From: Longimicrobium sp.
GTDB taxonomy: Bacteria; Gemmatimonadota; Gemmatimonadetes; Longimicrobiales; Longimicrobiaceae
Length of the DNA stretch: 64,000 nucleotides
Direction: 5' to 3'
Assembly: GCF_035474595.1 (NCBI RefSeq)
Contig: NZ_DATIND010000028.1
Location: forward strand, 1-64,000
Shown here piece after piece: positions 55,465 to 58,254 of this stretch; position 1 is the first letter of the stretch; every line of letters starts with the position of its first letter. The translations under genes were made by a program, and so were the position numbers. Under the pieces are notes generated by a model. That model had not been told where the DNA came from and searched no databases. It saw only the letters and a program-made list of their open reading frames with translations.

Positions 55465-55641
55465 CGGGGGACAGGTTACAGGAGACAGGGGACAGGAACA
55501 GCCGCGGCATTCGCGCTGGCCTGTCCCCGCTCCGTTTCCATGGGTTGCACGCAAGCCCGACCGTTGCCGCGGCATCGGCCAGCCCGGACCTTCCTGCTGT
55601 CCCCTGTCCCCTGTCCCCTGTCCCCTGTCCCCTGTCCCCTG
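55465..55641. repeat. Inverted arms of short tandem repeats (R4), abutting dut
   Basis: Left arm of GGGGACAG-type units (55465-55500); right arm of perfect CTGTCCC-type units (55597-55641) running directly into the dut ATG. Spacer about 95 bp. Same units as R3 before rbfA. Confidence 0.78.
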
Positions 55642-56101: not shown

Positions 56102-56139
56102 CGAAAGGGCCGGCACCCGCGCGGGTGCCGGCCCTTTCG
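56102..56139. terminator. Bidirectional terminator between dut and the peptide genes
   Basis: A 38-bp perfect palindrome: CGAAAGGGCCGGCACCCGC followed by its exact complement. It serves the convergent dut (+) and the last peptide gene (-). Confidence 0.8.
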
Positions 56140-56159: not shown

Positions 56160-56336
56160 TCAGGGCGTGCAGGGGCAGCAGGTCGGGTTGGTGGCCAGCG
56201 TGCCGATGGTGCAGACGACCTTCAGCGTCTGCTGCTCCTCGCGCGCGTGCACCGTGCCGATCCCGTGCGTCACCTCGGGCGAGGTGGGGAAGGAATCCAC
56301 GGCCAGGCGGTCCAGATCGAGCTTCAGCTTCGGCAT
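56160..56336 (-). CDS. RiPP precursor-like peptide 1
   Basis: 58 aa. Leader MPKLKLDLDRLAVDSF, then a spacer with GIGTVHA, then a Thr/Cys core VCTIGTLATNPTCCPCTP. The leader is shared with five neighbouring small genes (consensus K-L-x-L-D-x-D-x-L-x-V-x-S-F). Short gene, conserved leader and variable Cys/Ser/Thr-rich end are what is expected of a ribosomally made, modified peptide; the leader recalls those of pinensin-type lanthipeptides (from memory). The core ending NPTCCPCTP is shared with peptide 2. No modifying enzyme is in the window. Confidence 0.75.
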   Translation of the reverse strand: MPKLKLDLDRLAVDSFPTSPEVTHGIGTVHAREEQQTLKVVCTIGTLATNPTCCPCTP

Positions 56337-56338
56337 GT

Positions 56339-56527
56339 TCAGGGCTCCGGGTAGCGGGGAGTGCAGGGGCAGCAGGTGGGGTTCGACTCCAGCCAGGTGC
56401 TGCCGCAGACGGTCTTCAGCGTGGGCTGCAGCTCGCGCCCGGCGACGGTGCCCGCGCCCGCGGCCACGCCGAAGGCGGTGAAGGAGTCGACGGACAGCGC
56501 GTCCAGGTCCAGCTTCAGCTTCTTCAT
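56339..56527 (-). CDS. RiPP precursor-like peptide 2
   Basis: 62 aa. Leader MKKLKLDLDALSVDSFTAFG, spacer GAGTVAG, core TVCGSTWLESNPTCCPCTPR and a short PEP tail. Closest to peptide 1, with the same NPTCCPCTP motif but a different first half of the core. Lies 2 bp upstream of peptide 1 on the minus strand; own ribosome site GGAGG. Confidence 0.75.
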   Translation of the reverse strand: MKKLKLDLDALSVDSFTAFGVAAGAGTVAGRELQPTLKTVCGSTWLESNPTCCPCTPRYPEP

Positions 56528-56541
56528 CTCGCGGCCTCCGT

Positions 56542-56745
56542 TCAGCAGCGGCAGAGGGTGGTGGCGCTCGTGGGGCAGTCGCCCGTTGGGCACGCCTCGG
56601 TCGGGCAGAGGTTGAGCGAGGGGCAGCTCGGGATCGTGGGCCCGGCCTCCTGCCCCCGCACCGTCCCGTAGCCCGCCACCTGGCGCGGCAGCGTGGAAAA
56701 GGATTCGACGGCGAGGTGCTCCATCTCCAGCGCGAGCTTCTTCAT
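56542..56745 (-). CDS. RiPP precursor-like peptide 3
   Basis: 67 aa. Leader MKKLALEMEHLAVESFSTLP, spacer GYGTVRG, and a core with six Cys in regular array (SCPSLNLCPTEACPTGDCPT, then LCRC). The C-P-x-x-x-C-P spacing suggests repeated thioether or disulphide rings; core unlike those of its neighbours. 14 bp upstream of peptide 2. Confidence 0.75.
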   Translation of the reverse strand: MKKLALEMEHLAVESFSTLPRQVAGYGTVRGQEAGPTIPSCPSLNLCPTEACPTGDCPTSATTLCRC

Positions 56746-57040
56746 CGCCTTCTCCGGATTGGAAGGCATGGGCCCGGGTGCTCGACGAAGGGACTCGCCG
56801 CCGCACGACCGTTCCGGGCTGAAAGGAACGCCCGCAGGAACGCACGGTGGATGCCGGTGAGGCCGTCCGCGCCGGGCGGCGGAGGATGGAGGTGAAATCG
56901 AGGCGGGATGCGGATTTCCGCCGCATGGGACAAGCGAGCGGGCGGCGGAGCGAGTGGTTCGCTCCGCCGCCCGCACCGTTTCGATGAACGGGGCTGCCCC
57001 GAAATTCAGAATCGCCTCGTCTCCGCGCCGGGCGGATCGC
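56746..57040 (-). other. Gap inside the peptide array with a strong hairpin
   Basis: 295 bp without a recognisable gene. Contains a perfect 15-bp stem (CGGGCGGCGGAGCGA and complement) at 56939-56973 with loop GTGGT, just downstream of peptide 4 on the minus strand, probably separating peptides 4-6 from 1-3 as two transcription units. The remaining sequence may hold a promoter for peptides 1-3, but none is clear by eye. Confidence 0.5.
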
Positions 57041-57247
57041 TCAGCTCGCCTGCTCGACGCAGGTGGTGGCAGTCGAGGCCGGCGGGCAGAACGCCTCCAG
57101 GTACGACGCACCGGTGGTGCAGCCGCAGGACGCGTAGGGAGGCGTGGGCGCGTCGTACGCCTGCACGGTGCCCTCCTCCCGCTCGGGGGCGGCGATCGCG
57201 AACGACTCCACGGACAGCGTGTCGAGCTCGAGCTTCACCTTCTTCAT
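57041..57247 (-). CDS. RiPP precursor-like peptide 4
   Basis: 68 aa. Leader MKKVKLELDTLSVESFAIAA, junction EEGTVQAYDAPTPPYASC, core CGCTTGASYLEAFCPP and a tail STATTCVEQAS. Nearly the same as peptide 5 from GTV through FCPP, with a longer C-terminus carrying one more Cys. Ribosome site CCGGAGG 6 nt before ATG. Confidence 0.78.
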   Translation of the reverse strand: MKKVKLELDTLSVESFAIAAPEREEGTVQAYDAPTPPYASCGCTTGASYLEAFCPPASTATTCVEQAS

Positions 57248-57308
57248 CCATGCCTCCGGATCAGGGCGAGACGCGGGGACGGCGGCGCGCCGCCCCCGCA
57301 CTGCGGGC

Positions 57309-57494
57309 TCAGTCCACCAGCTGCGGCGGTGGGCAGAACGCCTCGAGGTACGACGCGCCCGTGGTGCAGCTGCAGGTCTTGTACGGCGGCGTCGGCGCGT
57401 CGTACGCCTCCACCGTGCCCAGGTCGCTTCCACCCGCCGCGGTGGGGAACGACTCCACGTCCAGCATGTCGAGATCGAGCTTCACCTTCTTCAT
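57309..57494 (-). CDS. RiPP precursor-like peptide 5
   Basis: 61 aa. Leader MKKVKLDLDMLDVESFPTAA, junction DLGTVEAYDAPTPPYKTC, core CSCTTGASYLEAFCPPPQLV. Sister of peptide 4; substitutions cluster in the spacer between leader and GTV and at the C-terminus, while the ring-forming candidates (CxCTTGASYLEAFC) are unchanged, as under purifying selection on the mature product. Confidence 0.78.
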   Translation of the reverse strand: MKKVKLDLDMLDVESFPTAAGGSDLGTVEAYDAPTPPYKTCSCTTGASYLEAFCPPPQLVD

Positions 57495-57555
57495 CCGTGC
57501 CTCCGGTCTGGTGGGATGGAGATGCCGGGGCCGGTCTGCGCCGATCCCGGACGTG

Positions 57556-57595
57556 CGCACGCCCGGCGGGAGGTGATCTCCACGCCGGGCGTGCG
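57556..57595 (-). promoter_or_regulatory. Intercistronic hairpin between peptides 6 and 5
   Basis: Perfect 13-bp stem CGCACGCCCGGCG/CGCCGGGCGTGCG with a 14-nt loop. It may stabilise the transcript or lower expression of the downstream peptides. Confidence 0.5.
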
Positions 57596-57603
57596 GTCGT
57601 GCT

Positions 57604-57753
57604 TCAGCGCTGCCCGCCCAGGGCGCAGGCCGCCACGCAGCTGATCAGCGAACACCCCCAGGTCCGGGTGTCGCGCTCGCTCTCGCGCGCCTGGGGCGCG
57701 GTGGTCCACGAGACGACGGCCAGGGAATCCACGTCGAGCTTGAGCTTGCCCAT
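57604..57753 (-). CDS. RiPP precursor-like peptide 6
   Basis: 49 aa, the first gene of the array in transcription order. Leader MGKLKLDVDSLAVVSWTTAP matches the family with S-W for S-F; the GTV junction is missing and the core TWGCSLISCVAACALGGQR has three Cys and is hydrophobic, unlike the others. Ribosome site GGAGG 5 nt from ATG. It is the most divergent member and could be a different product class. Confidence 0.68.
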   Translation of the reverse strand: MGKLKLDVDSLAVVSWTTAPQARESERDTRTWGCSLISCVAACALGGQR

Positions 57754-58254
57754 CCTGACCTCCGGAAAGGGTGGCGGCACAGCGCTGGTGATGATCGGGA
57801 GGATGAACAGTGGTGGAAAACCGCTGGTGACGCAAGACGCCCAATCTGTTCTCCTGATGGCCGTAGAAGATCGGTACAACGACAATCCGGCACCACTTCC
57901 AGAACGGCAGTGCGAAAGTGCGAGAGGGCGAAAGTGCGTGGGCTTCGGCGCGGGACAGCTTCCGGCCCGAGATCCCGACCCATTACCGTGACTGACGCAC
58001 TCACGCACTCACGCACTCACGCACTCACGCACTCACGCACTCACGCACTCACGCACTCACGCACTTCCTCCCGGCATGGCCCGTGCATCGGGCCGGGCTC
58101 GCGACGCGGCGAAACCGCGGCGCTCGGGTTGCGTGCACCGGGGGGCGGGCGTAGCTTTTTCGGGTTCCGCAAGTCCTTCGTACACTTGGGGCTCACTACC
58201 CGAACGTGTCCGGCGCGCCAGTTCCGCGCTCCGGCGGAAAGTCTCGGTCCGCAC
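57754..58254. other. Divergent region between peptide array and mreB, with repeat R5
   Basis: Divergent 501-bp gap. Inverted repeat R5 occupies 57908-58067: left arm of AGTGCGAAAGTGCG-type units (57908-57941) and right arm with eight perfect tandem copies of CGCACTCA (57997-58060). The last ~190 bp before mreB contain no clear promoter by eye. No gene seen. Confidence 0.65.

Follow-up and report, generated by a model that had tools for sequence, protein, structure and literature searches.

A six-gene array in a Longimicrobium genome belongs to a genome-wide family of probable class I lanthipeptide precursors

The prochlorosins and synechococsins of marine picocyanobacteria combine a conserved leader with hypervariable cores, are encoded by scattered genes, and are modified by one promiscuous enzyme system (ProcM or SyncM); the highest count given for prochlorosins assigns 83 scattered precursors to a single LanM (PMC10783134). 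Prochlorosins belong to class II, with a single LanM and a Nif11-type leader that carries a Gly-Gly site (PMC10783134). Pinensins, class I lanthipeptides of Chitinophaga, have been reported as clusters from six strains of Bacteroidetes in an account that mentions no dispersed precursors (PMC9248904), and a LanC related to LanM cyclase domains has been described for the pinensin group (PMC7268733). Within Gemmatimonadota, antiSMASH called three lanthipeptide-type clusters in Longimicrobium terrae; that study describes clusters alone, without mention of dispersed precursors (PMC7291104). A literature search that reached few subscription journals returned no description of the precursor family presented here.

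We analyzed an array of six small genes in a 64,000-nucleotide stretch of a Longimicrobium sp. genome (hereafter, the window), together with the genome-wide family to which it belongs. The family resembles the prochlorosins in that numerous genes scattered over the genome share a leader but encode diverse cores. Unlike them, it is paired with a class I split LanB and a LanC rather than a ProcM-type LanM, has a pinensin-like leader with a GTV junction, occurs in Gemmatimonadota, and tracks LanB rather than LANC_like domains alone. It shares with pinensins the resemblance of its leader to the NF038180 model, the split LanB, and a LanM-like LanC, but differs in that its precursors are dispersed and very numerous, a comparison made through NF038180 and published descriptions.

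The interval between dut and mreB at 56160-57753 holds six minus-strand ORFs of 49-68 aa that share one leader and fall into four core types (Table 1), in the gene order ald, dut, array, mreB. The original prediction had described this set, and all six ORFs were recovered at the predicted positions. The GTV junction it ascribed to five genes was seen in five of the six, and the claim that each has its own ribosome site was borne out by GGAGG before four genes, GGAGA before the third, and GGAGC before the first. A leader profile scored the six ORFs at 25.7-49.8 bits and the rest of the window at no more than 4.3 bits, and reached at most 6.7 bits in a reversed-sequence control covering 370 kb of host genome stretches; this gap and the low control scores argue that the ORFs are not products of chance. 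The palindrome between the array and dut, read from the sequence, is likely a shared transcription terminator. Two tandem repeats also lie in this part of the window, one between the array and mreB and the other upstream of dut. LanB, LanC, and LanM, which the original prediction had noted as missing from the window, were not found anywhere on the contig.

Table 1. Coordinates of the array, of neighboring features in the window, and of lanthipeptide enzyme genes in the host (G000) and related genomes.
Feature	Location	Strand	Description
Precursor gene 1	56160..56336	-	58 aa; core end NPTCCPCTP; leader profile 49.8 bits; G008 orthologue syntenic, its NPTCCPCTP end identical
Precursor gene 2	56339..56527	-	62 aa; core NPTCCPCTPRYPEP; leader profile 49.6 bits; core dN/dS 0.40 against G008 orthologue
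Precursor gene 3	56542..56745	-	67 aa; Cys-Pro repeat core; leader profile 44.8 bits; two homologues within the G001 array
Precursor gene 4	57041..57247	-	68 aa; core CGCTTGASYLEAFC; leader profile 49.7 bits; orthologue in G008; NF038180 pinensin leader match 19 bits (cut-off 24)
Precursor gene 5	57309..57494	-	61 aa; core CSCTTGASYLEAFC; leader profile 48.3 bits; orthologue in G008
Precursor gene 6	57604..57753	-	49 aa; hydrophobic three-Cys core, without GTV junction; leader profile 25.7 bits; syntenic orthologue in G008 likewise without GTV, all three Cys kept
Palindrome	56103..56138	.	perfect, 36 bases, GAAAGGGCCGGCACCCGC/GCGGGTGCCGGCCCTTTC; between array and dut
Tandem repeat	57991-58065		ACTCACGC x 9.4
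Tandem repeat	55597-55641		CTGTCCC x 6.4
LanB-N gene, contig C4	L046:7969-10374		broken by contig end
LanB-N gene, contig C23	L045:10215-11690		broken by contig end
LanM gene and upstream ORF, contig C25	L047:4460-8374		upstream ORF of 249 aa; 55% GC island in 71% GC genome
LanM gene, contig C136	L048:297-4231		accompanied by two candidate precursors, near-identical and 71 aa long, whose leader is of another type and contains GG
Class III LanKC gene, contig C87	L049:5190-8714		two short candidate precursors flanking the gene
Second LanB subtype, G008	L203:6825-7400		precursor cores of CxxC repeats (CSNCSDCSNC...)
Second LanB subtype, G006	L208:11000-11242		CxxC-repeat precursor, the only one in this genome

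The evidence supports the array being one cassette (6 of at least 186 genes) of a genome-wide precursor family. A first profile, built from the six array genes, gave at least 150 matches in the host genome; a leader profile made from these sites found 176 genes on rescanning the first 370 kb, and a second search added sites, bringing the total to at least 186 genes with the array's leader, distributed over 104 sites and 55 contigs. The original prediction had taken the leader as that of a RiPP precursor family, and the scale proved larger than it had claimed. Single genes make up 74 of the sites and arrays of two to nine the remainder. Family members stand well apart in leader score (17.4 bits or more, against no more than 5.6 for non-members), begin with ATG (181 genes) or GTG (5), and have a median length of about 70 aa. 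Members were selected on the leader only, ignoring the core, and Cys nonetheless occurs in every one of the 186 cores (1 to 19 per core) and Ser or Thr in 185. Cys makes up 15.2% of core residues compared to 0.2% of leader residues. At a loose similarity threshold about 152 dissimilar core types can be distinguished, and among paralogues the cores have diverged far faster than the leaders. A Shine-Dalgarno-like site precedes 169 of 185 precursors; at a control position the figure is 19 of 185. No neighboring gene is common to more than four precursor loci, the upstream sequences showed no strong common motif but became richer in A+T around -100 to -80, and no Pfam family covers the precursors.

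The leader consensus is M-x-K-L-x-L-D/N...L-x-V-E/D-S-F...G-T-V-x-A/G-H, and 138 of 186 leaders contain its L-x-L-D/N stretch, an LxLD-type motif; FxLD/LxLD has been described as a recognition sequence in lanthipeptides (PMC12710340). The predicted cleavage site lies near GTV-x-A/G-H. The leader had been predicted to be pinensin-like, and the resemblance held, with 41 of 104 members matching NF038180, the NCBIfam pinensin leader model, at E<=0.01; membership of the pinensin family did not follow, as most matches lie below the model's cut-off of 24 bits. Among ten members scored singly, one reached 25.6 bits and the others gave 11.9-20.3 bits or no match, and members in the window scored at most 19 bits. 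Because the matches fall mostly below the cut-off, we call the leader pinensin-type rather than pinensin. No match to a Nif11-type leader was obtained.

The host genome encodes four LanC-like and two LanB-N proteins. On contig C23 the genes follow one another, in order of transcription, as LanB-N, an elimination protein, LanC, six family precursors, an ABC exporter, HlyD, and a subtilase; the enzymes match PF04738, PF14028, and PF05147, and the six precursors carry the array's leader. The prediction that modifying enzymes would act from elsewhere in the genome thus finds its counterpart in a split LanB, LanC, exporter, and protease on another contig, beside precursors with the same leader. LanB is split in that PF04738 and PF14028 lie on separate genes, and a second PF04738 gene is found on C4. 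Because the contig ends cut both LanB-N genes, the enzyme set is incomplete in this assembly; the two are 86% identical where they overlap and possibly belong to two enzyme loci whose presence misled the assembly. In relatives, complete genes for LanB-N, the elimination protein, and LanC stand side by side, for example on contig C103 of G008. Scanning a named genome collection for this LanB returned no more than three matches: two close relatives, each a Gemmatimonadetes MAG, and a distant one. Other lanthipeptide synthetases are encoded on C25, C136, and C87 (Table 1), and the base composition around the C25 LanM suggests a recent import.

The host LanC scores 194.8 bits with PF05147, carries AWCHG and LCHG motifs (Cys/Cys/His zinc ligands), and is related to LanM cyclase domains, with TIGR03897 as its best NCBIfam match. 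A C-terminal domain is common to all eight LanC orthologues; for this domain two tested sequences gave weak PqqD matches (12.7 and 13.3 bits, cut-off 23.4) and a profile search against PDB sequences gave no significant match. Because the full-length model was poor (pLDDT 57), we compared folds with the C-terminal domain alone, modeled from two sequences at pLDDT 76. The closest folds were those of RRE proteins from lasso peptide systems with bound leader; Foldseek gave E 0.087, and VIA aligned 75 residues with TbiB1 at Z 8.4 and rmsd 2.8. This PqqD-like domain is probably a leader-binding RRE, a lead rather than proof given the sub-threshold sequence matches and the two-sequence model.

The leader is present in 10 of 21 genomes of the same family, with at least 134 copies each in the host, G001, and G008, 84 in G009, 83 in G014, 50 in G015, and 21, 11, 6, and 1 in the four remaining carriers. 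PF04738 and PF14028 occur in precisely these ten genomes and neither occurs in the other eleven (10/10 versus 0/11, Fisher p 2.8e-6, uncorrected for relatedness). A LANC_like domain by itself is no predictor of the leader, being present in three genomes (G003-G005) that lack both LanB and leader. No leader was found in forty genomes of the same order, and it is otherwise nearly absent among 395 genomes of the phylum. G008 and G006 also contain a second LanB subtype, associated with precursors whose cores consist of CxxC repeats (Table 1).

Conservation of the array itself was assessed in related genomes. Synteny of the dut-side array was seen with G008, which has seven genes there, G001, which has six, and G007, which has one; in G003, G006, and G020 the dut-mreB gap is only ~320-580 bases and holds no precursors. 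The leader conservation that the original prediction had set as a test was found, and its test of neutral evolution came out likewise: in ten orthologous or closely homologous pairs dN/dS is 0.51 for cores (bootstrap 0.37-0.71), not near neutral, and 0.51 for leaders. All 46 core Cys are kept, compared to 206 of 299 other residues (p 3e-7), and in eight of the ten pairs Ser/Thr are kept as Ser/Thr at 50 of 53 positions, while other residues are kept at 113 of 157 (p 5e-4). By these sequence comparisons, the array cores are under purifying selection.

These observations were weighed against other readings. Only the precursors adjacent to enzymes might be modified, leaving the dispersed copies as relics or fast-decaying leader duplicates, as the predominance of single-copy sites, the absence of a shared neighboring gene, and the rapid divergence of cores among paralogues could suggest; we consider this very improbable, however, because Cys is present in all cores and a ribosome site before nearly all genes, the dut-mreB cassette keeps its reading frames, Cys, and Ser/Thr in relatives with a core dN/dS of 0.51, and there are no precursors where LanB is absent. 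It is equally hard to credit that the leader is served by the LanM enzymes on C25 and C136 or the LanKC on C87 instead of the split LanB. These synthetases do exist, and one family precursor lies ~5 kb from the C25 LanM, but those on C136 and C87 adjoin short candidate precursors whose leaders differ from this one, the C25 LanM is preceded by a different ORF and sits in an island of deviating GC content, and genomes with LANC_like domains and no LanB have no such leaders.

With up to 19 Cys per core and CxxC-like spacing in several cores, the products could also be exported peptides that act through disulfides or metal binding, the association with LanB being incidental. The exact co-occurrence with LanB and PF14028, the precursors within the enzyme locus, and the retention of Ser/Thr as Ser/Thr alongside conserved Cys make this most unlikely. 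Spurious ORFs abound in high-GC DNA and the assembly is estimated to be 3.95% contaminated, so chance ORFs, an assembly artefact, or contamination were considered as well; we rejected such an origin and assign it next to no probability, since the reversed-sequence control was negative, the arrays are syntenic, and independent genomes contain many copies, among them G009, which is 1% contaminated.

We conclude that the array is very probably a cassette of genome-wide class I lanthipeptide precursors matured by one shared enzyme set located elsewhere. The original prediction, in which a single enzyme set acting in trans matures lanthipeptide precursors with several different cores, is supported, none of its three refuting tests having gone against it. 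The family, its numbers, its enzyme locus, the strict co-occurrence with LanB, and the conservation of core Cys and Ser/Thr can be read directly from the genomes; from these we infer the modification chemistry, action in trans, export, and a biological role. Each gene would combine a constant leader with a variable Cys-, Thr-, and Ser-rich core, and the shared enzymes (the C23 set, with the second LanB-N at the end of C4) would recognize the leader through its LxLD-type motif. LanB-N is predicted to glutamylate core Ser/Thr using glutamyl-tRNA, the separate elimination protein (PF14028) to remove the glutamate, and LanC, with its PqqD-like domain, to close thioethers with Cys. The ABC exporter/HlyD pair would export the product, and the subtilase is a candidate leader protease. 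A constant leader would thereby allow one enzyme set to produce well over a hundred different cyclic peptides, in the manner of ProcM and the prochlorosins. Several genomes carry further lanthipeptide enzymes, so service by a single enzyme set is a presumption.

In its logic the system is closest to the prochlorosins, as a class I counterpart of pinensin type with more than double the published number of precursors, and it would be the largest one-enzyme peptide library that we found on record. More specifically, a split-LanB class I system with a leader-binding domain fused to LanC likely underlies a genome-wide library of ~190 unlinked precursors, which would exceed every other known natural substrate set of a single RiPP enzyme system and would have grown as leader and core were repeatedly duplicated into new sites. 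If this is true, the prochlorosin strategy arose separately in class I lanthipeptides, in an unrelated phylum and at more than twice the published scale. Because the genes sit far from modifying enzymes, cluster-based genome mining would miss most of the family. The ~190 cores form a natural substrate set for studying the sequence tolerance of LanB and LanC, and the ten carriers and eleven non-carriers among these relatives provide a system for probing what such libraries are for.
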